From: Blepharisma japonicum
Taxonomy: Eukaryota; Ciliophora; Heterotrichea; Heterotrichida; Blepharismidae
Reading direction: 5' to 3'
Length of the DNA: 64,000 nucleotides
NCBI GenBank assembly: GCA_949751835.1
Contig: CATKHK010000005.1
Coordinates: 310,001-374,000, forward strand
The position numbers were made by a program, and so were the translations under genes. Within the stretch, counting starts at the first letter, position 1; each line of letters starts with the position of its first letter. Under the pieces are notes generated by a model. The model was not told the DNA's origin. It saw only the letters and a list, made by a program, of their open reading frames with translations, and ran no database searches. Positions 1,335 to 38,680 of this stretch are shown piece after piece.

Positions 1335-3182
1335 TTAGAAAAATGAATATGGATCTCTATCATCTGGCTCAGTCTTCACATGCACTCCATTAACAGCTCC
1401 TAAATTTTTTAAAACCGAAACAGAGTTTCCTATTGATAAGTCTAAAGGTGTGAATCCATCGTTAGATATTGAATTAATTACTGCCCCAGATTTTACTAAT
1501 TCTTTTATCGCATCTACCTGATTACTTTTCGCAGCGTGATGAAGCGCAGTCTTTCCAGAAAAATCTTTTTGATTTACAACTGCCCCACATAAGCAAAGAA
1601 AATTAATGATATCAGTATAGCCTTTTATAGAAGCTGACATAAGAGCAGTAATTCCATTATTATCTCCCAAGCTAACATCGAAGCCTTTTTCAGTCAATTT
1701 GTATAGAACCCTTAAAGCTCGAGTTTCAGCTGCAATCACTATAAGTGGTAGTTTAGCATCTTTTGCAATACTAATACGTGATAAATTTTCTAGAATGCTA
1801 TTCTCTCTTACATGCCCAAGCTGAGCAGCTATTGTTTCAATAAGCATTAATGCTCTTGCTATATTCAAGTGCCTAACATAATTTTGAGTTGCTTCATATA
1901 GCATTTCTAAAGTAAATAGATAGCAATATGAGTTTATTAAAGTATCAAAAAATTCGCTATTCGTTAAAAGTATGTTCTTATCATCTGGGCATCTAAAATA
2001 TGGTACAGAATTGTTCGCTAAATATTCAAACATTTTTCAATTTTCTTCAGAAGCAGTTGAGCAGATTGGGTTGCAGGTTTTACCATGATAATTGTCTTGT
2101 TTTTGATAATTATAGTCAATAAATAATTGAAACATTGATGGATCGTTTGATTTTGTAGCTAAAATCATAGGATGCTCATGATAGGAAGAATAGTGAGGCC
2201 AAATATCAGCACCACACCTCAAAAATATCTCTAAGAGCTTTTTCAGTCGCTTGCGTATGGATAAATATACATATGTGCTATTATTTTGATATAGATCAAG
2301 GTTATACCTAATCATTATTTGAAAAGCTTCGCATAAGAGCTCTTCATCGGAACATCTCATGATAAAGTCTTTCTGATGTGTGCTCAATAAATTAACGTCT
2401 CCTCCATTTTTAAGGAAATTTACTAGTATTTCCAAGCCGGATATTGATTTTATTTCATAAAGCAAGGGTCAAATATTGCTATTAATAATTTCAATATGCT
2501 TTCTTTTAAATACATTAAATAATTCGTTATCACATGCATCTAGGAAAACAGTTTGCAAAGATGTTCTGCTTAATAATTCTTCTAATTCTTTTAAATTCAA
2601 TTCATCTATACTAAAACAATAAGAAATATCAAGAATTTGCAATTTTTGTAAGGAGCATATTAAAATATTTATATATTTTCAAGAAGTAGAGGTGTTGCCG
2701 ATATATAGCTTTATTAAATTTGGGAAACAAATTGCCAACGTTTCTCTAATAGGCTCTGATCCTTTGAAATTTGTTAATCTAAGCTCCTCTAGTTTATGGT
2801 TTCTTTGGGTTGAGATTTCCATTTCTTTTAAAGTTTCCTCTCAGAGACTTACTAAATCACAAAAAGAATTTGATAAATCAAGCTTCAGCAATTCAGGATG
2901 AGAGGCGATAATTTTTGCAAGATTTCCTACACTAAAACTAACATTTCTCAGGTCTAAAGAAGCCAATCTTCAGCCTTCTTTAAACTTGCGAAGGCTTGTA
3001 TCAATAATTATTTCGTATGGTGTTAGTTGGAAACTCCTTGCCCCTTGGAACGTTACATAATGATAAGCGCCTTCAATTATTGATTTTCATTTTTTGCAAA
3101 CAAGAAGCAGCCTTAAAACCTCAGGGAAAGATCCTACAATTGTTAAAATATTTGCTAAAACAGGTCAAGGAATTTTTTCCAT
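1335..3182 (-). CDS. F-box / LRR / ankyrin-repeat protein, copy 2
   Basis: 615 aa in one frame once TGA is read as Trp. The N-terminal F-box-like segment (MEKIPWPVLANILTIVG, then LLLVCKKWKSIIEGAYHYV) spans residues 1-45. LRR-like strands follow (LASLDLRNVSF, LLKLDLSNSF, LIKLYIGNTS, LQILDISYC). The C-terminal half carries ankyrin repeats, clearest at ~500-590 (NGITALMSASIKGYTDIINFL, SGKTALHHAAKSNQVDAIKELV, DGFTPLDLSIG). It lies 54 bp downstream of copy 1's start region and 34 bp from the RING-CH gene, all on the minus strand. The predicted role is a substrate receptor of an SCF-type ubiquitin ligase (family knowledge); the target is unknown. Confidence 0.9.
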
Positions 3183-3216
3183 TGTTTTATCTAATTACGT
3201 ATAAATTAAAATCACA

Positions 3217-3738
3217 TTACTCTAAAGGCTGAATTATAAGTATCCCTAATCCCCAGCGCACTAAAGCTGTATATGCTGCTAGCATTATAACAATTAGACA
3301 TAATAATCCTCTAAAAAGCACTTGTAGGGCACCTTTAAAGTTCATCTGAGTAATATCATCTGCTGAAGCAACCACAATTCCTCCGTAAACTGTTAAAGTA
3401 ACGAGCAAAATTAATGCGACTTTTCATAAAGGGACTTGATCATTGCCATTGGCAGCTTCTTGCCCAGGTTGCTGTGTATTTTCATTTCTTATTAAATTAT
3501 GCTCATAAGCCCAGATAGACCAGCGTGATTTATACATGCTATGACAGATTTCACACTCGACTGACCCTGATTCTTTAATTCATTCTTTTAAACAGTCAGG
3601 ATGGATATATCGAATAGAACCCAAACAATTGCAAGGGATGCATAAATAAGTTTCTGGGTCTCCTCGTTCTAGACAAATGCGGCAAGATGTATTTTCATCA
3701 ATGTCTTTGATTTTAACCATGTCTGGCTCATCTTCCAT
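3217..3738 (-). CDS. RING-CH (MARCH-type) membrane E3 ubiquitin ligase
   Basis: 173 aa, starting MEDEPDMVKIKDIDEN. A RINGv/RING-CH zinc finger occupies residues ~17-67: CRIC, then CIPC-x-C, then YIHPDCLKEW, then CEIC. This is the C4HC3 order of MARCH proteins, with H in the fourth-to-fifth ligand position and W (TGA) after the LKE. Two hydrophobic helices follow at ~105-128 (VALILLVTLTVYGGIVVA) and ~140-165 (VLFRGLLCLIVIMLAAYTAL), so the finger is probably cytosolic on a two-pass membrane protein. MARCH proteins ubiquitinate membrane proteins and drive their endocytosis or turnover. It is only 34 bp upstream of F-box copy 2. Confidence 0.9.
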
Positions 3739-22166: not shown

Positions 22167-22862
22167 ATGCCAGAATTGTTACCAATAATATTCAGTAGCC
22201 TTGGCATAGGAATTTGCTTTTGTCTTAATCTGACACCTATTCCATCATTAATTAAAGCAAGTAAATCGAAAGATCTCACAACTATCTCTCATTTATACTT
22301 GATAGTTTCTGCTTTCAACTATATGTCATGAATTATTTACTCTCTGAAAATGAATTTAATTGGAAACTTAGTAAACAATTGTGTTTGTTATTGCTTAGAC
22401 ATGACATGGGTAATTATGTATCATAGAATCAAAGGTAATTTGCTGAGCTTTTTACCTCTTTTTTTGATTTTAACTTTAAGCATTGAAATTGCAATATATC
22501 TTCTTTGCCCAGGCTATGTCATGGGAATTATTGCACTATCGTTTTCTATTTGTTTATATGCAGCACCTATTGAACAACTAAAATATGTATTCAAGCTAAA
22601 AAGCCATCATTATATTGATATTTATGTGATACCAGCATTAATGCTGAATGCTGCAGCTTGGATATGCTATGGGTTTTCAGTTAGTGATTGATTTGTTATA
22701 TCCCCTAATTTTCCAGGACTTGTTTTTTCACTTTTTCAATTAATTGCTTATTTATGGGCTCGTGGGAATATTCATTGTCCATTGTTTGAATGAATTTACA
22801 CAAAAGCAGGAAAAGAGCATTTAGTGACTGAGGAAGACTCATCAAAAAATTCTCAGATATAG
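22167..22862 (+). CDS. SWEET-family sugar transporter 1
   Basis: 231 aa, seven-helix SWEET/MtN3 protein. The first repeat begins LNLTPIPSLIKASKSKDL with the Pro motif of TM1, then FNYMSWIIYSLKMN. The second repeat has LYAAPIEQLKYVFKLKSHHY, then NAAAWICYGFSVSDW, then ISPNFPGLVFSLFQLIAYLW. SWEETs are facilitators that move sugars across membranes by alternating access. Four Trp are TGA. The start follows the pattern of the paralogues (ATG followed by IFSSLGIG). It is first of a five-gene tandem array. Confidence 0.93.
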
Positions 22863-23081
22863 TAGAAAAATAAAATTATTAAATAGTTTGTTTAGCACAA
22901 TAATATCAATATCATTTCAATATGCTGATTGTAATAATGGTAAAAATACTGAAATTAAATTATTGTATAAATTAATTTATGATTTTTCAATTAAAACTTA
23001 TAAATCTAATTTTTATCTATTTTTAGATATAAAAATTCAAAGTAGACAAATTTTTAGAATATGGTTTAATACAATTATTAT

Positions 23082-23786
23082 ATGTCAGATACTCAAGCTG
23101 CAATTTTTAGCTCCCTAGGAATTGCATTCTGCTTCTGTCTTAACATGACACCTATAAAATCCTTCATTAAAGCTAAGAAAACAAAAGATTTAAAAGAAAT
23201 TTCTCAACTCTATCTTCTTGTATCAGCATTCAACTATGCTTCGTGGTTATCATATGGAATTAAGATGAATCAAACTGGAAACTGGATAAACAATATAATA
23301 TGTTTGACTTTAGACTTATCGTGGGTTATTTTTTATCATATTATAAAAAATGACTGGAAATCATTTGTTCCAATTTTTCTCATCTTGCTTGGGTGCGTAG
23401 AAGTTGCGTTATTTATGCTATTTCCTGCTTATGTTATAGGATTTTTTGGCATTGCATGTGCTGTTTGTTTATACGCAGCACCAATTGAGCAGCTTGGATA
23501 TGTTTTCAGGTTAAAAAACCATAACTATATTGATGTTTTAATTACCTCTGCAATGATAGTAACAGCGGGAGCATGATTGTTGTATGGAGTTTCAGTGAAC
23601 GATTGAATAGTTATAGGTCCAAACATCGCTGGGATAGCTTTTGCAATATTTCAAGAAATAGTTTATTTCTGGGCACGAGGAGTGATTCCTTGTCCCATTT
23701 TTACTTGTCTTCAAAATAAAATGGCAAAGAAGCCACTGATAGCAAGTGAAGAAAACTCAGAAGAAATTCAGAAAGACTTAGTTTAA
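23082..23786 (+). CDS. SWEET-family sugar transporter 2
   Basis: 234 aa. MSDTQAAIFSSLGIAF, then NMTPIKSFIKAKKTKDL, opens repeat 1; LYAAPIEQLGYVFRLKNHNY, then VNDWIVIGPNIAGIAFAIF, forms repeat 2. It shares the C-terminal tail MAKKPLIASEENSEEIQKDL with copy 3, marking them as closest relatives. Two conserved Trp (GAW and NDW) are TGA. Membrane sugar facilitator by family; its substrate is not evident. Confidence 0.93.
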
Positions 23787-23998
23787 GTAAATCATTAACG
23801 TATAAAAATTTATTAAAATACTGAAATATTTTTTTGATGAATATATATAAAAATATTTTTGCTTTCTAGAATATAAAGAAAATCCATAAAAAAATTAAAA
23901 AATTAAAAAGTTTGTTCAATAAATATGATCGTTATTTAATGACTCCCTACCTCCATGAGTGAAGACAAGATTTTGTTCCCTCAAGAGGATTGAAAATA

Positions 23999-24043
23999 AG
24001 AAAGTATCAATTTTTTTTGAGTATGGCATAATGCCACCATTTT
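23999..24043 (+). promoter_or_regulatory. Conserved upstream block of SWEET 3
   Basis: About 45 bp ending at the start codon match 25735-25779 with only a few differences (GAGTATGGCATAATGCCACC against GAGTATGGTATAATGCCACC). Further upstream the similarity is patchy. This is a probable core promoter or 5' UTR retained after duplication. It contains two upstream ATGs not in frame with the gene. Confidence 0.45.
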
Positions 24044-24748
24044 ATGTCAGAAGCACAAGCAGCTATTTTTAGTTCTCTAGGAATTGGTTTGGCCGTTGCC
24101 CTTAACTTGACACCTGTAAAATCTCTCCTTAAAGCAAAGAAAACAAAAGACTTAAAAGAAATTTCTCATCTCTATCTTCTTGCAGTAGCATTCAACTACG
24201 CATCTTGATTTTCATACTCTCTCAAAATGAACCAAACAGGTAGTTGGGTAAACGCTATAGTGTGCTTAATTTTAGATTTATTATGAGTAGTTTTTTATCA
24301 TGCTATTAAAGGAGACTGGAAATCATTTGTTCCGATTTTTTTAATTCTGCTTGGATCGATAGAAGTTGCATTATTTATGCTATTTCCTGCTTACATTATA
24401 GGATTTGTTGCTGTAGCATTTTTGATTAGCCTGTATGTAGCACCGATAGAGCAGCTTGGATATGTTTTCAGGCTAAAAGACCATAATTATATTGATGTCT
24501 CAATTACTTCTGCATTGATTATAACTGCTGTAGTTTGGTTAATGTATGGGGTTGCAGTAAGAGATTGAATGATTATGGGTCCAAATATTGCTGCAATAAC
24601 TTTCTCAATATTTCAAGAACTTGTCTATTTTTGGGCACGTGGGATAATCCCATGCCCTATTTTTACTTGCCTTCAAAGTAGAATGGCAAAGAAGCCATTA
24701 ATAGTAAGTGAAGAAAAATCAGAAGAAATTCAGAAAGATTTAGTTTAA
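24044..24748 (+). CDS. SWEET-family sugar transporter 3
   Basis: 234 aa, very close to copy 4 and close to copy 2. MSEAQAAIFSSLGIGLAVAL starts the first repeat; VAPIEQLGYVFRLKDHNY and VRDWMIMGPNIAAITFSIF mark the second. At least three Trp codons are TGA. About 45 bp immediately upstream, including an out-of-frame upstream ATG, are almost identical to the sequence before copy 4, so the duplicated unit included the promoter. Confidence 0.93.
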
Positions 24749-25009
24749 ATTATTTATTGAATTTTTGAATATTTATTATGATTCTTCAGTATAATTTCGG
24801 GGGCTTTTTTTCTGGCTGAGATGCTTCAGCAATTTTACCTGTACCTACAGATTATAAAAGATATAAAAAATATATAACCCTTTCAGGGGTAAAATTTTTA
24901 TCAAGATTCAAAGGATTCTCCCTTAAACTCTTATCTAATGTCTAAAAACAGCAAGTTTAAGCATTATTTTCTCATATTCATTGATTCATTAATTTATTAA
25001 ATTGATTCT
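24749..25009. other. Spacer, possible transposon end
   Basis: Mostly AT-rich. At 24877-24889 is ACCCTTTCAGGGG, which resembles a PiggyBac-type terminal sequence next to a TTAA-like site (here ATAA). It lies on the expected side of the transposase fragment. No matching opposite end was found before SWEET 4. Confidence 0.3.
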
Positions 25010-25597
25010 TTAATTATTATGGTTATGATAAGGGCCAAAGCAAGCTTTATGCAATGGCATTTTGCAAACAGAATACATATAGATGGTGTTTGAATCTTTA
25101 AAGAGCGAAGAGCATAGTGTAAACCTTTTTTTTCTCCATAAAGACCAATTCATGCTTCTGGTAGGTACACGATCAATTTCCATATCTTCAGCTCTTTGCT
25201 TTTGCTTATTTTCGAATTGTGTGAGGTGATTCACAATTGACAAGTGAAAATCAAGATAGTCTACCTTTCTCTTGGAATGCTTCAATGAGATTTCGTTGAA
25301 AATAACGAATGAATTGTTCAGTGTAATTTCTATCGGCTAGTGAGAAAAAAAAACTAAAGCATTTTTTTTACTTATGTGGATAAAATAATAAGTCAATCAT
25401 TGACCAAATGCGTCTACACCACCCATATGTTTTCTGTAAGCCTCTAAAACATTAGGAATTGATAACTTCTTTCTTTCTCCGCCTTTTTGTATTCTATCTA
25501 CTTGGATAACTTTAGAATTTATGTAATTGGTTAATAAAGTAGCTTTTCATATTGTAAGCATAAGGTTGTCTTTGCTCAAAAAATTGAGTTCTAAGGT
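25010..25597 (-). pseudogene. PiggyBac-type transposase, C-terminal fragment (broken)
   Basis: A 196-codon frame (TGA as Trp) is interrupted by one TAG at 25337-25339. It carries hallmarks of the DDE_Tnp_1_7 C-terminal part. These are NLMLTIWKATLLTNYINSK, then PNVLEAYRKHMGGVDAFGQ (the MGGVDxxDQ motif, with the last D replaced), then NNSFVIFNEISLKHSK, and finally a cysteine-rich end (SVCKMPLHKACFGPYH) like the PiggyBac zinc-binding tail. The N-terminal catalytic half is absent. PiggyBac transposases, in domesticated form, perform programmed DNA elimination in ciliates; this copy looks dead. Confidence 0.8.
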
Positions 25598-25734
25598 TTA
25601 AAATTATTTATTAAAATGCTTAAGATTTTTTTAATACATCTATAAAAAAATTTTGTTGTCTAGGAATTCAAAGAATATCTATAGAAAAATTAAATTTTAA
25701 AAAATTTAATTAAAAAGCATTACGCTATTTCATA

Positions 25735-25779
25735 AGAAGTATCAAATTTTTTTTGAGTATGGTATAATGCCACCATTTT
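25735..25779 (+). promoter_or_regulatory. Conserved upstream block of SWEET 4
   Basis: Near-copy of 23999-24043 directly before the start codon of SWEET 4. Shared parts include the T-run, GAGTATGG, ATAATGCCACCATTTT and the start ATG. Presumably a duplicated core promoter. Confidence 0.45.
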
Positions 25780-26457
25780 ATGTCAGAAACGCAAGCAGCT
25801 ATTTTTAGTTCTCTAGGAACTGGATTGGCCGTTGCCCTTAACTTGACACCTGTAAAATCTCTCCTTAAAGCAAAGAAAGCAAAAGACTTAAAAGAAATTT
25901 CTCATCTCTATCTTCTTGCAGTAGCATTCAACTACGCATCTTGATTTTCATACTCTCTCAAAATGAACCAAACAGGTAGCTGGATAAATTGCATGTTGTG
26001 CTTAATTTTAGATTTATTATGAGTAGTTTTTTATCATGCTATTAAAGGAGACTGGAAATTATTTATTCCGTCTTTTTTAATTCTGCTTGGATCGATAGAA
26101 GTTGCATTATTTATGCTATTTCCTGCTTACATTATAGGATTTGTTGCTGTAACATTTTCGATCAGCCTATATGCAGCACCAATAGAGCAGCTTGGATATG
26201 TTTTCAGGCTAAAAAATCATAACTATATTGATATTTTAATCACTTCTGCATTGATTATAACTGCTGTAGTTTGGTTAATGTATGGGATTACGGTAAGAGA
26301 TTGAATGATTATTGGTCCAAATATTGCTGGATTAGCTTTTTCAATATTTCAAGAAATTGTTTATTTTTGGGCACGTGGAGTGATTCCTTGTCCTATTTTT
26401 ACTCGAATAAACAAAAAATGGCGAAGGAAGCCATTAATAGCAAATGAAGGAAAATAA
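25780..26457 (+). CDS. SWEET-family sugar transporter 4
   Basis: 225 aa. It is nearly identical to copy 3 through both repeats (MSETQAAIFSSLGTGLAVAL; APIEQLGYVFRLKNHNY; VRDWMIIGPNIAGLAFSIF). The tail differs: small insertions and deletions after PCPIFT change the reading to RINKKWRRKPLIANEGK and end it about nine residues early, losing the EEIQKDL terminus of copies 2 and 3. The transporter core is intact. It is separated from copy 3 by the dead PiggyBac fragment. Confidence 0.92.
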
Positions 26458-27524: not shown

Positions 27525-28226
27525 ATGAATTTTCTTATCACAATTTTTAGCAGCACCGGAATCTTTGTGTGTTTTATCCTCAACTTGACTCCAATTCCTT
27601 CTCTTATAAAAGCAAATAAAACTCGAGACATTTCAGAAATTTCTCATCTATATTTCATAATTGCAAGCATAAATTACCTCAATTGATGCCTTTATGCTAC
27701 CAAAGTAGATTTACTCGGCCCACTAATTAATAACTTATTCGGATTGTGCCTCACAATAGCATATATTATTATTTACCACAAAATAAAAGGGGATGTTTGG
27801 AAATTTAGCTCAATTTATTTTGGAAGCTGTGCATGTATCTCATTAATAATGTTCAAAACATTCCCGAGTGATTTGTTGGGGCTTCTTTCTGTAGGACTCT
27901 CAGCATTACAATACATGGCCCCGATTGAACAATTAAAGCCAGCTTTGCTGAATAAAGATCATAAATATATAGATATTTTTATTATCCCTGCGCTATGGAG
28001 TAATGCTGCTGTTTGGGGAGCTTATGGATTTTTAGTTAATGACTGGTTTATTGTGATACCAAATTTAATGGGCTTATTATTTTCTTTATTTCAGATTTTA
28101 GTATATGCATGGGCTTATGGATTCTTACCCCATCTTACTTTTTCTTGACTTGCAGATAAAATTAGAGAAAAACCAATAAAAATGAATGAAGATGATGCAA
28201 TTGAATTTCATAATAATAATATTTAA
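27525..28226 (+). CDS. SWEET-family sugar transporter 5
   Basis: 233 aa, the most diverged member of the array. MNFLITIFSSTGIFVCF, then LNLTPIPSLIKANKTRDI, starts repeat 1. Repeat 2 contains YMAPIEQLKPALLNKDHKY, then NAAVWGAYGFLVNDWF, then IPNLMGLLFSLFQILVYAW. TGA encodes Trp in YLNW and TFSW. It shares the APIEQL and conserved Pro-Asn motifs with copies 1-4. Confidence 0.92.
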
Positions 28227-28356
28227 CTGAACTTTGAAATATCATAAGAGTGTGGCTATCTCCTAGTTTATATCTTTTATTATTCAATACTCTTAATATT
28301 ATTTCCATTAAATATTTAATAATAAAGACAACAATTATTTCAAGATTCTTATAATA

Positions 28357-29673
28357 TTATACGCGGATTCTTTGATAATGAATATCACCCTCATTAATAT
28401 CAAATTCTTGCCATTTGTAATATAGAATCGACGATCCAATAAATAGTAAAGTTAAAAAGAACATTGGAAGTATTGAGCTTCCAAAGCCGAAATCTGCAGT
28501 AACTACTACAGTAGATTTAGCTGCTAAAGCAAACCCAACTTTACTATTTTCAGCATCATAAATTGAATAGTATTTCCTCAAAAATACATCTCCTAATATT
28601 CAGAAATTCCCTTTTTGTAATGACGTTAACAGTAATTGGCAATAAAGTCCTTCCTTCATAAAATATTCTTCAGGTTTAAGGACAAAAACATGTCCTGACC
28701 CAAGCTCAAACGAAATATCAGGATAATCAGTGATTTTGTGTGAAATTCCACAATCACACACTAAAAATCCAAAGGCAAGGTAGCACTGGCCTTTTTGGTG
28801 AATTCTCATCATAATATCATTTGCTTCATTTTTCGGAGCCATGATAAGACTCGTTCCTGTATCCACAATAGCCAGAAATGATATATAATCAATCAGTGTA
28901 TAATCAACCTTTATATTTGTTAACAAAACAGTTCAGTAGCCTGTTTCTGGGAAGACACTCATCCATATGATATCTGAGTTCTGAGCATATGAAGCCAAAT
29001 CATATCCTCCGAAAATAATTACAGAGTTAGGACTCGTAATTTTACTATCCCCAAATAAATTATCACCAAAATAAACAGAAAAGATTTTGTTTGTAATTAA
29101 TCCTTGCAATTTTAAATTGTCTAATAAAGTGTTATATCCTTTAGAAAGTTTTCTAAAAGCTAAACCTAAAATTCCATCCGCTTGCATTCCTTCGAAGTCT
29201 TTATTTTGATTGACAGAGATAAATGCTTGATTAGACACATTTAAAGGATTCCTGTCACCAATAATAACTCGTTCTTGGCTCAAATCACCTTGTGCAAATC
29301 CCATGCCGTATGATAAAGTGATTTTTTCACCAAGAGATTTATAAGATGAGCTATTAGACGTGTTTAAATAATTAGAGCACGGGTGGCATGCAGTTTTGCA
29401 ATTTGTTGAAGGAACCCAAAGTCAAGCAGAGCCTGTATCAAAAATCACTTTAAATTCTACTGGAGGTGTTCCAAGTTTTATCCTCCCACTGTATTGCATA
29501 TTCATAACATTTTCGAAATAGCTTGATGTATTGAGATCAATGAGGTTGAGAGAAAGCTCTGTTAGTTTGATAGAAGTTATGTCAATCATTTTCATTGGCT
29601 GTGACTTTTCAAGAGGAATTACCACATAGCTGGCCACTGCAAGAGCAAAAATCCAGTATAGTAAAAATCTCAT
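28357..29673 (-). CDS. Pepsin-type (A1) aspartic protease with C-terminal membrane anchor
   Basis: 438 aa. A signal peptide (MRFLLYWIFALAVASY) is followed by a short pro-region. The first active-site motif is FDTGSAWLWVPS (~residue 79; the first W is TGA) and the flap is LSYGMGFAQGDLSQE. The second active-site motif is AIVDTGTSLIMAP. WILGDVFLRKYYSIYD is the conserved end of the fold. A membrane helix (ILPMFFLTLLFIGSSILYY) and a short tail follow. A membrane-anchored A1 protease probably works in the secretory, lysosomal or digestive-vacuole system. It sits directly downstream of three VSR-like receptor genes. Confidence 0.93.
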
Positions 29674-29977
29674 ATTTAATTTGGAGATTTAAGAAAAACT
29701 ATAAATTCTATTCTTAATTATTATAGCTCCTAAGAAAGATTGTAAGGCATATTTTTATAAATAGCTAAAAGAACCATTAAAATTAATGCAAATCAAATAT
29801 GGGACGATGAATTAGCAAATTCATAATAAAGCTCAGTTGGATTTATTTTTTATGTGATAAAATAAATAACGAAAATACTATCGATCATAGATGTTTTGGA
29901 TTTTCATAAATGTTGGAATAAGCAGTAATTAATTATAAAATAAGTCGCTGAAATTTGAATGCTCTCTCTTATAAGCT
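29674..29977. other. Intergenic spacer
   Basis: 304 bp between the protease start and the end of the first receptor gene; AT-rich, nothing recognised. Confidence 0.5.
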
Positions 29978-32131
29978 TTAAGTGATAATTCCATAGCAAT
30001 TAGGGCACAACGAATGCTTTGATCTTTTCTTTTTCCAGTCACCCAAACATTTTTTATGAAATATATGATAGCAAACTGTGATTTCTTTTTTGCTCTCTGT
30101 AACTGCACACAAGCAAATTGTGCATATAGGATCTCCAAAAAATTCATAGCCCTGACCATGCTCAACTACTACTGATTCTTTATCTTTTGAATCCATGCTG
30201 TTAAAAAGCTCAGAGTCATCGTTAATATTTTCATCACTATTGATTATTTCTTGATGCTGATTATTAGTTTCTTGCTGATGATTTATCATTGAAGGTAGAC
30301 GCTGTGCATGCTGCTGATAAGTAGCAGACTGCTGAATCATAGTTTCATTTTGAGTTAATGGATTGCCTCTTGGCCCCTCTGGGAAGTTGGTTTCGCGTGT
30401 GCGATGGCATGCTCTACAATACATAACTACGAGTATAGCAATACCAAGAATACTAAATAGAAATTACCATAGAAAAATAAGTCCTCCAATTATACCAACG
30501 ATTAAGGCAATTTGAGAAGTGGTAATACTTGAATCTTCGTTATCTTTTCCATGAGGGCTATGGTCATGATTTCCAGGACCATTTGGGTTACCTTCACCAT
30601 TTGGACTACCTGAATCATTTGGACTACCTGGACCATTTGGACCGTCAGGGCCATGGCAAGCTCTGTTATCAAAATTGCATTCAGGCTTATTGCATTTCTG
30701 GTCACACTCATTGTTATATAGAAGCTCATCTGAGCATTTGCAATCTTTTGATATATTGCAATCCCCATTATCATAATTACAGATCTCTTTATTGCACTCT
30801 GGATCACATTTACCATTTGTAAGCAAGGATTTATCGCATTTGCAGACACAAGACCATCTATCATAGTCATATTCTGTATAATTGCAGGAAGGATCACAAA
30901 CTGAATTCTTTAGCATCTTTGGGGTGCAAATTAGCGGCGATGAGTTGCCTTTGCAATCCTCAGCGTCATTTGCACACATATCGATGTCGCATTTTTTGTC
31001 ACATTTTCCATTATTTATGTCTGATAAATTACATAGATATGAGCATGTATTAGTGCATGACAAGGGCTGAAAAGATTTGAAACTTCCACAGAATAAATCC
31101 CCGAAATAAGAAATATTTCCTAAAAATGGTACAGAGTTAATACTAATTGATGGTGCAAATTGAAATTTATGGGTATTTGAACCACTCATCTGATTGTCGA
31201 TCATATTATTGCTATGATGGCGGCCTTTTCTTCATGAATCGTCAACAAGAGACTTTACTTCTTCAGCATCAATATCTAGTCATTCCAAAATAGAATAGCT
31301 GCAGCCATCTGAATAATCTGCCTTACAATTGGACGCAATTGCATTTAAATATACAAAAAAGTCCCCCCAATAAGGTTTTTTGTTCAGGACATAATTTAAT
31401 AAAATTAGCTCAAAAATTGTTTGATTAATCATATCTCTCCCTTTGTTTACATGTGTAGAGTCACTTAAACAGAATTTTCCATCTCCATAGCAATTGTCAG
31501 GGCTACAATTTTGGCAGGGAAAATAACTAAAAAATAGTCTTATCTTAGCTTGGTGAATAGGTAAAGGGATCATGTATTTGTAAATTTCAGAGATAAAATG
31601 AGCATCAATGTTATGATCGCCGGTAAGCCTAATATCAATATCTAGCTTTTTTGAAACTGATATCTCTGTGTTAAATTTAACAGTAATTTCAAAATCCTTA
31701 TAGCTTCTTCAAATATTGCCATTAGTATTTGAAATCATTACAGCAAAAATAAAAATATTCTTATCCCACCCGGTGGGCAATGAAATAAATTCATATTCTA
31801 TCTCATTATCGTTTTTATTGCTCTTAAAAATTACTCCTCCAGCGCCAGTTTGTTGGATATTATATGTAACTAATGAGCAGTCACAGTCTGCATTATTTAC
31901 AAACACTACTATGCTCGAGTTAAACCTAGAATTCAAATCAGAGCATGGATTTTCATACTGTGGCAGAAATGCAACGAATCCTTTAAATGTGTCTTTGATA
32001 TGAGGATTCCCAAAATTGGCAGTGACTGCTGGAATTATAATGTCAGGATAATGTTGGAGAAGGCTTTCAGGCCCTATAAGTTCTAACCTACTAGTTGCAA
32101 TTCCTAAAAGTAAAAAGAAAAATTTGTTCAT
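29978..32131 (-). CDS. PA / VSR-like / Notch-LNR / TM / RING-H2 receptor, copy A
   Basis: 712 aa after removal of a 15-nt intron (30453-30467). Order: signal peptide (1-16). PA domain (~30-140; TANFGNPHIKDTFKGFVAFL and QQTGAGGVIFKS). Central domain like plant vacuolar sorting receptors (~200-355; CYGDGKFCLSD, GRDMINQTIFEL, SDGCSYSILEWLDID, then FAPSISINSVPFLG). Four LNR/Notch-type repeats (~360-500; NNGKCDKKCD, NSVCDPSCN, NGKCDPECN, NNECDQKCN). A Gly/Pro/Asn-rich linker. A TM helix (~538-565). A RING-H2 finger near the C-terminus (CTICLCAV, CYHIFHKKC, CPNC). Probably a cargo receptor that is also an E3 ligase in the endolysosomal system (inference). Confidence 0.9.
30453..30467 (-). other. 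15-nt intron in receptor copy A
   Basis: On the minus strand GTAATTTCTATTTAG, inside the transmembrane-helix coding region. Removal joins GGLIFL to CILGIAILVV and connects the extracellular part to the RING part. Confidence 0.92.
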
Positions 32132-32175
32132 ATTTGGAGTTTATAAATTTCCACCAAATTACGATTATTAACTTC

Positions 32176-34263
32176 TTAATCTAATGAATTATCTTCAAAT
32201 AAATGTTTATTGCAATTTGGGCAAATAGGCTCTTTAGCCGCTTTGACTATCCACTCAGACAAGCATTTTTTATGGAAAATATGATGACAATTCGTGATTG
32301 CTTTGTCTTTCTTTATGATTTTGTCAAGGCAAATCGAGCAGACAGGTTCTCCATAAAACGCATAACTTAAATCAGAATTTACTCCTATTTTATTTTCCAT
32401 TCTGCTTTCAGTCTTGGAAAACTCTGCCTCTTCGTTGCTTTCAACTACCTCCTCATCGCTATTTATAATGCATGGTTCTTGGACTACTTGAGGATCTTGA
32501 ACTTTATTCTTCCAATGCTTTCTTGAAGATAGTCTTATCATATGCCGCTCATGGGTAGGTGGAGCTCCATCAGGCTGCTGAATTTCATTGATAGTTAAGG
32601 AGTCAATTTCAGGATCGCTCATTGTTCTTGAATTCTTCTTTCTTCTATACAAAATACAGTAGATGATAATACTAACAATTCTAAGTAAAAATTACAAAAT
32701 AAAAACAACACTGCAGGTGACTTCTGCTATTAAAGCTATTTGCCAAGCCTCAAGATCGTCATCTCCTGAGCTGTTTGTCTTATTTTGGCAAGCGTAGTTG
32801 TCGAAATTGCATTCAGGAGTATTGCAATCTGAGTCGCACACATCATTATATAGCAGATCATCGCCACAGTGGCAAATTATCATTGATGAACAGTCTCCAT
32901 TATCGTATTCGCATATTGCTGAATTGCATTCAGGGTCACATATGTCATTTTCCAATAAAGTTGAATTGCATCTGCAAACGCATGACCAATTATCATAATT
33001 ATATTCAGTCACATTGCAAACTGAATCGCAAACTGAGTTAGATCTCATAGCTTCAGTGCATAGTGTAGACGTGCCTTTGCAGTCTTCAACGTCTTCCGAG
33101 CACTTTTTATTTGCACAATTAATTTCACAGTTTCCATTATTTATTCCAGACAGTTGACAATCATCTGAGCAATACCCATAGCATGAGGAAGGATGATGAA
33201 AAAAACTCTCACAAAATAGCTGATTGAAATAAGAAAGATCTCCAAGATATGTTATTGAATTTACAGTTACTGATGGCGTAAATCATATATTTTTATTTGA
33301 TTTTTCAGTCATTTGAGTATCAATTACTGTATTATCCCATAACTCACCATTGTGATTTTTTCTCCAGGAATACTCTATTGATGTTCGAATATCCTTAATA
33401 TCAGCGTTTAGCCAATGTATGACAGACTCACTGCAAGTATCTGAATAATCATTTTTGCAATTGCTTGTCATAGCGTTCAAATAAGCCAAAAAATCTCCTC
33501 AATAATCATTATTTCTTTGGACGCAATTAAGCAAAATAATTTCATACAATGTTTGATTAATCATGGCTTTTCCTGTGCTAGAATTAATGGAATCTTTTAA
33601 GCAATACTTGCCATCAGCATAACAGTCATTTGCATTGCAATTTTGACATGAAAAATAGTCAAAATATATTTGAATGTTGGCTTCACTAATTTTTAGAGGT
33701 ATCAAAAATTTATAAATTTTTGAAATAAATTGAGCATCTAAAATGTTGTCTCCAGTAAGCCCGATTTCAATGTTTGGAGCATTTGATACTGAGATTACCG
33801 AAAAAAATTGAACCTTAATAGGATTATCCTTGTAGTCTTTCCATATGCCACTGTGGGTGCCGGAAATCATCACAGCAAAAATTGTGATGGATTTATCCCA
33901 GCCATTTGATAGAGAGATTAACTTGGTGGCTACTTCAGTATCATTTAAAGCACTATTAAAGATAACACCTCCAGCTCCTGACTGCTGTATATTGTATGTG
34001 ATTAAAGCATAATCACAGTTTGCTTGATTAATGAAAATTGCTATGTTTGAACTATATTTGGAATTCAAACTGGAGCATGGGTCTTCGCTGTCAGGTAAAA
34101 ATCCAATCGAACCTTCGAAATCTTCTGAGATATAAGGATTGCCAAAATTGGCTATGACTGATGGAACAACGCCATCATCATATTTTTGACGCAACGCTGA
34201 AGGTTCGATAAGAAGGAGCTTACAAAAAGCTCCTCCCCAGAGTAAAAGGTAAAGGTGTTTCAT
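32176..34263 (-). CDS. PA / VSR-like / Notch-LNR / TM / RING-H2 receptor, copy B
   Basis: 690 aa with one intron (32681-32695). It has the same order as copy A: signal peptide (MKHLYLLLWGGAFC); PA domain (VIANFGNPYISEDFEGSIGF, QQSGAGGVIFNS); VSR-like central domain (CYADGKYCLKD, GKAMINQTLYEIILLNCV, WGDFLAYLNAM, FTPSVTVNSITYLG); LNR repeats (NNGNCEINC, NSVCDSVCN, NDICDPECN, NDVCDSDCN); TM; basic cytosolic start (LYRRKKNSR); RING-H2 (CSICLDKI, CHHIFHKKC, CPNC). It lacks the long Gly/Pro linker of copy A. It starts 270 bp from copy C's end and ends 44 bp from copy A's start codon. Confidence 0.9.
32681..32695 (-). other. 15-nt intron in receptor copy B
   Basis: Minus strand GTAATTTTTACTTAG at the same position in the TM-helix codons as in copies A and C, same phase. 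Joins VVFIL to IVSIIIYC. Confidence 0.92.
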
Positions 34264-34534
34264 TTTTAAAAGGATAAAATTTGGATAAAATCATTAAAAG
34301 TTAATTTTTTTAGAGAATGTTTTGGCCAACTAGGCTTAGATTTATAAATACAATGAGATTATTATTTTAATTAAGATAATATGCTTTTATCAATCTAATT
34401 TTATTTAAAACACTCCTTATTACTCTTAATTGCAAGAATTCAGAATTTTCTTAAATGAGTTGTTTAGCAAAATTTTTTCGTTTAAACTTTTTTAAAAAAA
34501 TTATTCCAGCTATCAGCTAGGATTTATAGACAGT

Positions 34535-36619
34535 TTAGCTAAGGTTTTTATTGCAATTTGGACACAAAGATGCTTTACCCTTTTTATTCACCCATTCCTT
34601 TAAGCACTTTTTATGAAATATATGGAGGCATTTTGTTATTTCTTGCTTCCTCTTTGACACTTTCTCTAAGCAGATTGTGCAAATTGGTTCTCCATAAAAT
34701 TTATATCCCAATTCAACTTCTTCTGCTTTTGAGGCCTCTGACTCTTCATTGCTTGCTACCACCTCACTATTCAATATCTCTGGATATTGCATTATTCTTG
34801 GACTGCTATTAACTCCCTGCTGTGAGTTTATCCTTGATGGTAATCTAATTGCATACTGTTGATAAGGGTTCTGTTCTTGATTCTCTGCATTATTACCATT
34901 ATTTCCATTAAATGAGCTATTTCTTGACTCCCCTCCGGAGTCATTATTTCCTGGAGATGATAAATTCCTTGACCTTCTATAGATTATGCATAAAATAATT
35001 GTGCCTAGTACTCTAAATAAAAATTACAATAATAAAAAACTTCCTCCAATAATTCCAGCAATTAAAGCTATTTGTGAAGTTGTTACACTTACATTTTTAT
35101 CTTCATCGTTATCTTTTGTGTTATTTTTGCATTCATAATTATCATAATTGCATTCAGTAGTATTACACTCTTGGTCGCATTTATCATTATACAATAAATC
35201 ATCAGTGCAATTGCACTGTGAAGTGGTCGTGCAATCACCATAATCGTAGCTGCAAATTTCTGTGTTACAGTCTGAGTCGCATTTCCCATTATTTAATAAG
35301 GTGGAATTGCACTTGCAAACACATGCTCAGTTGTCATAGTTGTATTGAGTTGTATTGCACTCTTTATCACAGACTGAATTATACAATAAAGTATTATTAC
35401 ATCCTGAGGTGAAGGATTTACAATCTTCTATGTCTAGTGAACACGCAGATTTAACGCACTGTGGTTCACAAACGCCATTATCTATCATTGATAAACTGCA
35501 GCTGCCTGAGCAATATCCATCAGATGACTCTGGCTCGTCTGTAAAACTATCGCTAAAAAATTGAGGAAAATATTTCATCCCTCCAAGAAACTTCACTTCA
35601 TTTATAGTAATTGATGGTGCGAATCACAAATCATTGTTTTTTCAGTCATTCATCTGACTTTTGAGGATTTGATTATCTGAAAAAGCGTTATTTTTAGTAG
35701 ACCAAGAGGCATTATTCATTAACTCTATATCTTCTGAGTCAAAACCCAGCCACTCTAAGACATAATTGCTGCAGGAATCTGAATAATCAGACTTACAGTA
35801 CTCAGAAATGACTTTTATGTAGGTGAAAAAATCTGCATATGTATCTTTGGCTAAGGTCACATAATTAAGCAGATTGATTTCAAAAAGTGTTTGGTTTATC
35901 ATGCTTTTCCCTGGAGATGCACTCGTAGAGTCATTTAAGCAATATTTCCCATTAGAATAGCAGTCATACGCGCTGCAACTCTTGCAGGTATAATAATTGA
36001 AATAAATTTGTATGTTTGCATCGTCGATTGGCAATGGCATCATATACTTATAGATGTCTGAAATAAATTTCAAGTCAAGGACGTGGTCTCCTGTAAGCTC
36101 AATATAGATGTCAGGGATTTTATTTTGATTAACTGTCGAGCTAAAAGCAAGCTCAATTTTATTGTTGCCGTAGAATTTTCAGGTAAATGTAGAAGTGTAT
36201 GATACCATTACAGCGAAAATCTCAATATCATTACTCCATTCATCTGGCAAGGAAATTACTTTATCTTGCACTTGATCATTGCTGGAGCTGCTATTAAATA
36301 TAACACCTCCACCGCCGCATAGCTGAATTTCATAAACTACTTGAGCATAGCTGCATGCTAAATTTGTGCTAGGTATAAATACTATTGTGTCTAAATCAAA
36401 CTCCAAAGTTAGCTCAGAGCATGGATCTTGACTATCAGGCAAAAAAACAATGAATCCTTTAAAGGGATCATTAAAATAAGGATTCCCAAAATTAGCAGTA
36501 ACAGATGGTACGATGCTATTTTGATAATAATAAGCCAGCAAGCTTGGCTGTTGTATTTGTAAGATGCAAATGACTGCACCAATTAGAAAAATAAAAAATC
36601 GTATCATATTTATATTCAC
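34535..36619 (-). CDS. PA / VSR-like / Notch-LNR / TM / RING-H2 receptor, copy C
   Basis: 689 aa with one intron (35014-35028). The signal peptide includes RFFIFLIGAVICIL; a second in-frame Met at residue 5 is possible. The PA domain is VTANFGNPYFNDPFKGFIVF with a CGGGGVIFNS core. The VSR-like domain carries CYSNGKYCLND, GKSMINQTLFEINLLNYV, SNYVLEWLGFD and FAPSITINEVKFLG. Four LNR-type repeats follow (DNGVCEPQC, NSVCDKECN, NGKCDSDCN, NDKCDQECN), then TM, an Asn/Ser/Gln-rich cytosolic linker, and RING-H2 (CTICLEKV, CLHIFHKKC, CPNC). Several Trp are TGA. Confidence 0.9.
35014..35028 (-). other. 15-nt intron in receptor copy C
   Basis: Minus strand GTAATTTTTATTTAG, same site and phase as the introns of copies A and B. 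Confidence 0.92.
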
Positions 36620-36917
36620 ATACTTGAATTTTTATGGTTTATCATCTAAAGTTACAATTTTTCAAATTAAAATATTAATCTCGATTTTTATGATAATTTT
36701 ATGATATTTTATTTTATGATCGATAGTCTCTTTTATTAATATATTTCCATCCTTTGATATAGAAATTCATGTTTTTCAAAAAATGAAACGAATCATCATG
36801 ACGTCCTTCATTTCTCCAAGGAAATTTGCTCCATTATTTTCCTAAATTTCTATTGGGATTTTTATTTCAATGTTGGAATTGCCATAAAATTCTTTTTTAC
36901 TTCCACAACTTTGAAAA

Positions 36918-37570: not shown

Positions 37571-38680
37571 ATGAGTTCGCAAAGATCCAAGCCGAAAAAT
37601 AAACAGCCTCGTAAAAAGGAAGAGCAGAAGGTCTACAGTTCAAATCAAAGTAATGATGCTTTATTAAATCAAAAAAATATAGAATCATCAAATGGCTTAG
37701 AAGAGGTGTTTTCAACAGGCATAGGCAGCCTCTCAAAGCCTACAAATATGCAAGGCAATGGAGTTAGGAACTTTGTGGCTAATAATGATTTGACCAACTC
37801 TCAACCTCAAGAATTCATTGCAGTTAATAAATCTATTCCCTCTAAGCCTCCAGAATATAAAGATTACATTGTGTTCCCTATTCAGAATTGGGATGATTAT
37901 CCAGAAACAATTAGCAAAAACTGAATTCCGATTGAAAAAATGAAAGAAGTCGCAAAATTTAACCCTAATTTTAGGAAAAATATAGATTTCATTAGATCAA
38001 AAGGTTTTGCTGGCTGGAAAAAGAGCAGAGGTGATGGGAATTGCTATTTTCGTGCAGTTATGGTTAGATTCTTGGAGTTTCTATTCAAAGTTTCAACTCC
38101 ATTGGACTATGCTGTAAGATTCCTTGATACTCTTAAAAGACATACAGAAATATTTCTTAAATCAGCTCAATATAGAAATAAACAATTTATTCAATTTATT
38201 CGTGAAAAAGAAGAACTTGAAAAATGAATGAATTACTATTTAGAGATGAAACAAAAATATCCTGTAAACTCTTTCCTCAATTTTATTTCATACACTCAAT
38301 CAATAGATTTTGATAGAGCTTTTATACACTCTGCAAGACTATTAACAGCATCTTTTCTGCTTTCCAATGATGAAAGAATTTCAATGTTTTTTGACGAATC
38401 TCTGAATAATCAAATCACCAAAATCCTAACTATGGGCGAAGAAGCTGAAGGGCTTGCACTATTAGCACTTCCTTTATCTTTGGGCATTAAGGTTGTACAA
38501 TATAACTTATTTGATACTGCAGTAAACGTTATGGAGTTTCCAGATGATAGCCCAGGAGAGTTCGAAGTTTCAATTATTAGAAGAGGAGGTCACTATGATA
38601 TTTTATATAAGATACAAGAATTAGAAGATGAGCAATATAATTTTGCAACAGGATGCTATCATTTCCCTCTTAATTCTTAA
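37571..38680 (+). CDS. OTU-type deubiquitinase (OTUB1-like, peptidase C65)
   Basis: 369 aa. A disordered Lys/Gln/Ser-rich N-terminus (1-100) is followed by the OTU catalytic core: KSRGDGNCYFRAVMVRFLEF carries the Asp and catalytic Cys, and SIIRRGGHYDILY carries the catalytic His. The layout, including a helical insertion between the two and the ending tract, resembles OTUB1/OTUB2, which cleave polyubiquitin. Two TGA Trp lie in the protein (near 37922 and 38225). Its stop codon overlaps that of the convergent TBC gene. Confidence 0.9.

Follow-up and report, generated by a model that had tools for sequence, protein, structure and literature searches.

Does a single ciliate polypeptide combine the lumenal part of a vacuolar sorting receptor (VSR) with the RING tail of a ubiquitin ligase (E3), and if so, where did its two halves come from? 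The question is raised by an array of three minus-strand genes, here called A, B, and C, that spans positions 36607-29978 of a 64,000-nucleotide stretch of Blepharisma japonicum DNA (contig CATKHK010000005.1, positions 310,001 to 374,000; G000:C5:310001-374000 of a host genome of 45,185,585 bases in 224 contigs), which as a whole is referred to as the window. A first-pass annotation, made from the letters alone, had proposed at 29978..36619 a tandem trio of receptors sharing one architecture; gene models and domain scans confirmed the trio and the position of the array, while moving the start of gene A to the ATG at 36607 instead of 36619. The chimera is real at the sequence level and no product of chance, since B shares 48% and C 46% identity with A and the rate of nonsynonymous substitution (dN) is below that of synonymous substitution (dS) in 12 of 12 segment comparisons.

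Viewed in three frames, the minus strand repeats the same succession three times, namely a hydrophobic N-terminus, a lumenal part, a transmembrane segment (TM), and a RING, with an in-frame TAA in each TM. The TAA of all three copies sits within a 15-nt GTA..TAG intron, and these introns are the sole minus-strand matches to that pattern in 28000-36660. In-frame TGA is read as Trp: A, B, and C share an invariant Trp in six columns, in four of which TGA and TGG replace each other. Both the TGA usage and the intron length match features reported for Blepharisma stoltei, in which UGA encodes Trp and introns are mostly 15 and 16 bp long (PMC9942806, excerpt). In the resulting gene models, intron removal would join lumen and RING into one continuous gene per copy, ending in a TAA stop in each case (A being counted from its ATG), instead of the separate extracellular and RING genes that the first-pass annotation had named as the competing outcome. 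The three genes look maintained, judged by their sequences; as dS is above 1 in all 12 comparisons and infinite in six, dN/dS of the window pairs is unusable as a number. Because the TM intron holds the in-frame TAA, its retention would yield a receptor that ends within the TM and lacks the RING, a possible isoform switch. The genes and their introns are located as follows.

34535..36607, minus strand: gene A, 685 aa; signal peptide, PA-like domain, VSR_TRX domain, LNR stalk, TM, and RING-H2
32176..34263, minus strand: gene B, 690 aa; architecture as in gene A
29978..32131, minus strand: gene C, 712 aa; architecture as in gene A plus a Pro/Gly/Asn-rich juxtamembrane stretch
35013..35027, minus strand: 15-nt phase-2 intron within the TM codons of gene A
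32681..32695, minus strand: 15-nt phase-2 intron within the TM codons of gene B
30453..30467, minus strand: 15-nt phase-2 intron within the TM codons of gene C

The domains of the encoded proteins were assigned by Pfam scans, by profile-profile comparison (hhalign), by hidden Markov models (HMM), by cysteine or zinc-ligand patterns, and by Kyte-Doolittle (KD) hydropathy.

36143..36550, minus strand: PA-like domain of A, residues 20-155 (hhalign; HMM 1.6e-5; not listed by Pfam)
33796..34212, minus strand: PA-like domain of B, residues 18-156 (hhalign; Pfam PA 0.0074, below cut-off)
31664..32080, minus strand: PA-like domain of C, residues 18-156 (hhalign; Pfam PA 0.0029, below cut-off)
35522..36130, minus strand: VSR_TRX domain of A, residues 160-362 (PF25011 E 7.9e-10; genome search 1.9e-8)
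33166..33786, minus strand: VSR_TRX domain of B, residues 160-366 (PF25011 E 1.3e-11; genome search 1.3e-9)
31052..31654, minus strand: VSR_TRX domain of C, residues 160-360 (PF25011 E 3e-7; no match in genome search)
35129..35512, minus strand: LNR repeats of A, residues 366-493 (PF00066 2.5e-10, four stretches at E up to 1; Cys pattern)
32788..33171, minus strand: LNR repeats of B, residues 365-492 (PF00066 3.7e-5, three stretches; Cys pattern)
30656..31045, minus strand: LNR repeats of C, residues 363-492 (PF00066 1.1e-6, three stretches; Cys pattern)
34982..35053, minus strand: TM of A, residues 519-537, split by the intron (hydropathy, mean KD 2.78)
32650..32721, minus strand: TM of B, residues 515-533, split by the intron (hydropathy, mean KD 2.93)
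30422..30493, minus strand: TM of C, residues 547-565, split by the intron (hydropathy, mean KD 3.07)
34553..34681, minus strand: RING-H2 of A, residues 638-680 (PF13639 1.5e-9; ligand pattern)
32212..32340, minus strand: RING-H2 of B, residues 637-679 (PF13639 8.4e-10; ligand pattern)
29996..30124, minus strand: RING-H2 of C, residues 665-707 (PF13639 2e-7; ligand pattern)

When the full-length proteins were scanned with Pfam, PF00066 (LNR) and PF13639 (RING-H2) exceeded the cut-off in all three, while VSR_TRX was listed in none, so that routine annotation could label these proteins as LNR/RING only. VSR_TRX (PF25011) did exceed the cut-off in 3/3 when the central domain was scanned alone, and a genome search with PF25011 returned 13 places, including A and B without C. 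The first-pass annotation had ascribed a VSR-like character to this central domain and had named the lack of any VSR/PA match as the contrary outcome; the profile search found the match in every copy. The PA assignment stands on profile-profile comparison, with Pfam placing it below cut-off in B and C, not listing it in A, and finding no match when the N-terminal piece of A was scanned alone. In hhalign runs against canonical profiles made of eight ciliate VSR rows (described below) and AtVSR1, the three window PA rows scored 97.9%, and nine fused rows, in which six genes of contig C22 join the window trio, 98.0% (E 1.9e-13). The corresponding values for the TRX domain were 99.3% (E 2.6e-20) for the window alone and 98.9% for the nine rows. 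Cross-domain controls gave about 0.1%, and 20 column shuffles of the nine-row fused profile reached at most 1.2% (PA) and 0.8% (TRX). An HMM from the canonical rows recognized the window PA domains at 2.9e-11 (C), 4.8e-10 (B), and 1.6e-5 (A), with the database size set to 20,000 and 23 as the best of 90 shuffled sequences, and a three-protein profile matched 4tjv over the PA in a PDB search at E 0.0093. The four LNR repeats that had been annotated proved to be three complete six-Cys repeats and one degenerate one per protein, and the annotated RING-H2 was borne out, with all eight zinc ligands present in A, B, and C together with a C-x-I-C isoleucine that presumably corresponds to the E2-contact Ile234 of AtRMR1.

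To what family does the lumen belong? A genome search with protein B, in which 64 of 213 candidates were scored, gave at least 86 matches, among them the other two window genes, six tandem genes on contig C22, one gene on contig C62, and canonical VSRs. Eight of the latter were complete (on C3, C10, C82, C119, C47, C48, C63, and C28, hereafter vC3 and so on); VSR pieces on C33, C53, and C41, which were broken or lay at contig ends, were excluded from the counts. The complete ones follow the order PA-TRX-TM with a short tail, are intronless in 8/8 gene models, and carry no LNR and no RING; Pfam listed no EGF family in the two that were scanned. As VSRs have been reported in alveolates (PMC5264500, excerpt), canonical VSRs in a ciliate are not new. 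A search with the PA family PF02225 found 10 places, all on contigs with a canonical VSR or a VSR piece. No ordinary RMR (PA-TM-RING without TRX) was recovered by way of PF02225, a search that also missed the window PA domains, so that a diverged RMR could escape it. Nor were relatives found in viral and prokaryotic contig collections, which are silent on other ciliates.

The C22 array consists of six diverged genes with the order PA-TRX-one LNR-TM-linker-RING, the LNR being recognized by its Cys pattern in the four that were checked. RING matches lie downstream of all six, with C22e ending before its match, C22d running into masked bases, and C22b modeled to the LNR only. Against an HMM of canonical VSR TRX domains, five of the six scored 6e-13 to 2e-11 and C22b 0.006, the best of 100 shuffled sequences being 42. 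The C62 gene encodes TRX-TM-RING, with Pfam VSR_TRX at 1.3e-13. A TRX tree of 19 rows and 218 columns, with stars on five of its 16 inner branches, unites the ten RING-tailed proteins (100/99) and nests them with vC48 and vC63 (99/99) as the nearest canonical VSRs. The lumens are thus kin to the VSR family. The best tree uniting the eight canonical ciliate VSRs was weakly rejected (p-AU 0.025), and a tree placing C62 with vC48 and vC63 was rejected more clearly (p-AU 0.002), the groups for these tests having been chosen after the TRX tree had been seen. The RING-tailed group sits on a long stem (2.05), so that its position among the VSRs is less secure than the grouping itself. Three peculiarities of C22 were seen in passing: in C22b (L030 reverse complement, ~2650-3300), the LNR is followed by a long Ser/Gly/Asn/Asp low-complexity stretch with the RING match downstream; C22c (L026) has a cytosolic linker with repeated IQNxQEIQQAIxFYNQ-type units; and the RING of C22c shares no more than 35% identity with those of C22a and C22f.

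A possible source of the tail is a family of small proteins without VSR parts. The gene on contig C128 encodes an LNR-TM-RING protein of 190 aa (Pfam LNR 2.7e-5, RING 2.9e-12), and a genome search with it (E up to 1e-4; 150 of 258 candidates scored) gave at least 110 matches, of which at least 15, C128 included, start at or before residue 27 and extend to residue 180 or beyond; C128 is the one match in which the LNR was Pfam-tested. Nine stand-alone RING genes were modeled, L086 and L087 having given no RING model, and six of these (C128, three on C85, C75, and C12a) possess a 15-nt phase-2 intron in the TM. The LNR was recognized in C128 by Pfam and in the C85 and C12a genes by eye. An intron of the same length and phase is found in the TM of all three window genes and of all five C22 genes with a modeled TM. 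Judged from these models, window, C22, and stand-alone genes likely have a common intron site, unproved to the residue. Apart from this family, a PF00066 search of the genome (150 of 501 candidates scored) gave at least 148 LNR matches, on C131, C60, C40, C57, C9, C11, C85, and other contigs, a large Notch-type expansion for a ciliate.

How do these proteins compare with known systems? Like plant VSR/BP80 (AtVSR1; 8r4y, 9b1r, 4tjv), they have a lumenal PA followed by a TRX domain, and plant VSRs are likewise type I proteins with one TM. The window proteins differ in having LNR repeats where plant VSRs have EGF repeats (the full-length Pfam scan of the three proteins gave no EGF family), in their RING tail, and in two lumenal features considered below. 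With the canonical VSRs of the same genome they share the lumenal PA-TRX order; those are intronless, without LNR or RING, and end in a YxxPhi tail. The RMR/PA-TM-RING E3s (AtRMR1, RNF13, GRAIL, Goliath, ZNRF3) resemble them in a PA-type lumen, one TM, and a C-terminal RING-H2, and the RMR order of PA, TM, and C3H2C3 RING is present in the window proteins by hhalign, hydropathy, and PF13639 (3/3), respectively. To our knowledge, no RMR/PA-TM-RING protein has a VSR_TRX domain or LNR repeats. The contrast that the first-pass annotation had drawn, with EGF repeats and no RING in plant VSRs and no VSR_TRX in PA-TM-RING proteins, is supported. The RMR plan is given as PA-TMD-RING (PMC12552968, excerpt), to which the window lumen adds VSR_TRX and LNR between PA and TM. 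The small LNR-TM-RING proteins of C128 and C85 (four modeled, 185-198 aa) share with the window proteins the LNR, the 15-nt phase-2 TM intron, and a G[EQ]PxC motif before the RING, and differ in having a single LNR and neither PA nor VSR_TRX. With Notch the likeness is the six-Cys LNR, Notch3 being the best PDB match of the three-protein profile (8.7e-8). Notch receptors further carry an EGF array, the NOD/NODP heterodimerization (HD) region, and ankyrin repeats; a full-length Pfam scan of A, B, and C listed none of the EGF, heterodimerization, or ankyrin families at E up to 1, an absence that is not absolute, because the same scan missed VSR_TRX. Among plant vacuolar receptors, RMR alone has a RING-H2 and VSR lacks it, according to a 2025 paper (PMC12552968). 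We found no account of a VSR lumen fused to LNR and RING in the open-license literature; as predicted from these gene models, VSR lumen, LNR stalk, and E3-type tail would be a new combination.

The simplest reading of its origin would be the fusion of an intronless VSR lumen with an LNR-TM-RING gene: the PA and VSR_TRX half of a ciliate VSR would have met the LNR-TM-RING module of a local family, and the TM intron would have come along with that module. Such a joining of domains would be traceable, as both halves appear to have relatives left in the genome. As to function, RMR/PA-TM-RING E3s, as described in the excerpt of PMC12552968, would be the closest model by analogy. The Arabidopsis RMR RINGs are active E3s, and the mutation I234Y increases Golgi retention (same excerpt). 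We therefore favor, with a probability of about 0.5, the reading that a VSR lumen joined to LNR-TM-RING made endomembrane receptors whose trafficking would be directed by ubiquitin in an RMR-like manner. The three genes would encode type I membrane receptors of the secretory/endosomal system, with the RING facing the cytosol; the PA-TRX lumen would bind a partner, and the LNR stalk, which may bind Ca2+, would fill the position of the plant VSR EGF repeats. The RING, if it acts as an E3, would ubiquitinate the receptor itself or a membrane partner, and this ubiquitin, not a YxxPhi tail signal, would direct post-Golgi/endosomal sorting, as proposed for plant RMR receptors. The first-pass annotation had suggested that the fusion ubiquitinates its cargo or itself. 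Soluble lumenal cargo is not a plausible RING substrate, because the RING should face the cytosol in a type I protein, so that the candidate substrates would be the receptor itself (as had been suggested), membrane partners, or cytosolic factors.

Several observations weigh against this reading, the first group of them against its account of the origin. The C22 PA domains gave E values of 0.0098 to 270 with the canonical-row HMM, which is weak by itself; Pfam scans of two C22 TRX domains did not list VSR_TRX, and a scan of one full C22 protein did not list LNR. The C62 gene has no TM intron, no LNR, and no PA visible by eye in 1.4 kb upstream, so that a single joining event needs later losses. 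Long branches may affect the TRX tree, and a RING tree (16 rows, 56 columns) is unresolved, with no starred branch and with C62 weakly among the stand-alone genes; it is neither support for nor exclusion of a separate C62 origin. The TM intron is absent in three of the nine stand-alone RING genes (C132, C24, C12b), C75 has the intron with no clear LNR by eye, and within the best 19-residue TM window the intron falls at offset 9 in genes A, B, and C and at 11-15 elsewhere, which is why a common site is not proved to the residue. The second group concerns sorting. A YxxPhi tail motif is present in 8/8 canonical VSRs (YIAL in four, YFAM, YFSL, YFAL, YFMI). After the TM, B has no YxxPhi-like string, A has YPEI, and C has YEFF, YHIF, and YGII, the last two falling in or at the RING; since A and C keep such strings, loss of the tail signal is clear for B only.

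The lumenal cargo site is a further point of this kind. Plant VSR1-PA binds its cargo at the C-terminal carboxylate through Arg95, an invariant residue of RGDCYF (PMC12796998, excerpt). In an alignment read by eye, this cargo-loop Arg is missing in all three window and all six C22 PA domains, and since it is absent, cargo recognition as in plant VSR1 is unlikely; the recognition of vacuolar cargo by the known route, as the first-pass annotation had it, is weakened accordingly. The fused lumens, going by this alignment, probably bind their partner differently from plant VSR1. Among the canonical ciliate VSRs, RGxC is retained in five of eight (vC3, vC10, vC82, vC119, vC47) and not in vC48, vC63 (Arg one residue off), and vC28, again by eye; vC48 and vC63, the canonical VSRs closest to the fused group, are thus likewise without the cargo-loop Arg. 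The lack of this plant-invariant residue in vC48 (L015), vC63 (L038), and vC28 (L032) suggests a second VSR cargo class in B. japonicum. AtVSR1 has the lumenal order PA then TRX, with a CxxxC that begins helix 1 (PMC11052993, excerpt). By eye, no Cys occupies the place of this CxxxC in the aligned stretch of the window or canonical ciliate proteins, which disfavors a thiol-disulfide role of the TRX domain.

Could the array encode something other than sorting receptors? The proteins might be surface or endosomal E3s that control membrane proteins, in the manner of ZNRF3/RNF43 or Goliath/GRAIL, with the VSR-derived lumen binding a ligand or co-receptor and the RING marking a membrane partner for removal. 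The missing carboxylate-binding Arg speaks for this, as do the PDB matches of the profile, which place the RINGs of ZNRF3 (9.6e-5) and RNF13 (4e-4) above that of AT5G66160 (0.012), which we take to be AtRMR1; moreover, since C128-type proteins without VSR parts exist, the LNR-TM-RING module can work without a VSR lumen. However, the lumen retains PA followed by TRX, as in a sorting receptor, and clusters with ciliate VSRs, and the membrane partner remains hypothetical, so we consider this explanation rather unlikely.

Less probable still are diversifying recognition receptors (for mating, prey, or self), in which a borrowed VSR lumen would vary its binding face among tandem copies while the RING sets turnover. 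The C22 copies look fast-evolving, as far as such comparisons tell, with lumenal dN/dS of 0.42-0.92 over 10 pairs (two pairs, 79 and 81% identical, reach 0.92 and 0.89) and 0.31 for the RING of C22a/C22f. Tandem arrays of three and six genes would fit such receptors, and so would the N-glycosylation sequons in the first 500 residues, which number 8-10 in the window proteins, against counts of 2 and 4 for two canonical VSRs. On the other hand, dN/dS exceeds 1 in no pair (these values being pairwise, not site-wise), the closest pair (88% identity) has 0.63, and the framework of the window copies is conserved throughout their length. Finally, that lumen and RING lie in separate genes or that the copies are decaying, as the in-frame TAA in the raw DNA and the C22e model that stops before its RING match might suggest, is very improbable, given that the TAA falls in a GTA..TAG intron of 15 nt and the same phase in 3/3 window, five modeled C22, and six stand-alone genes, that A, B, and C have retained their RING ligands, and that dN stays below dS in all 12 window comparisons.

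If a VSR lumen was indeed joined to LNR-TM-RING, a bolder possibility, which we put forward only tentatively and at less than even odds, is that a ciliate lineage rebuilt the VSR by giving its lumen a ubiquitin ligase in the same chain, whereby the receptor would write its own ubiquitin sorting signal in place of an adaptor-binding tail. Plant cells use two separate types of vacuolar receptor, and genes with a VSR lumen and a RING tail would indicate that the two designs can merge. If true, the logic of plant RMR would have been reached independently in evolution, with features of both plant vacuolar receptor classes in one polypeptide. Such genes would also provide a natural experiment on whether an E3 acting in cis can take the place of a tail sorting signal, with the YxxPhi-tailed VSR paralogues of the same genome as controls.

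The surroundings of the array are no functional evidence for it. Gene prediction gave 40 genes in the window, and ten besides A, B, and C were scanned with Pfam: a SWEET-type transporter, an aspartic protease, a MORN-repeat protein, an otubain-like C65 peptidase, a TBC/EF-hand protein, a Mur-ligase-like protein, two NUDIX proteins, an RRM/MLLE (PABP-like) protein, and a DDB1/CPSF-A-like protein. The protease that the first-pass annotation had offered as a possible cargo is indeed a pepsin-type aspartic protease (28360-29673, minus strand; PF00026, E 1.8e-71) with a hydrophobic segment close to the C-terminus, directly downstream of gene C; its putative role as cargo is drawn from adjacency alone. 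An otubain-like deubiquitinase (37571-38680, plus strand; Peptidase_C65, E 3.4e-20) also lies near the array, an adjacency that may be due to chance. Further away, 22167-26457 (plus strand) holds four similar tandem genes, the first of which matches MtN3_slv (SWEET sugar transporters) at 2.3e-19, the other three being alike by eye.

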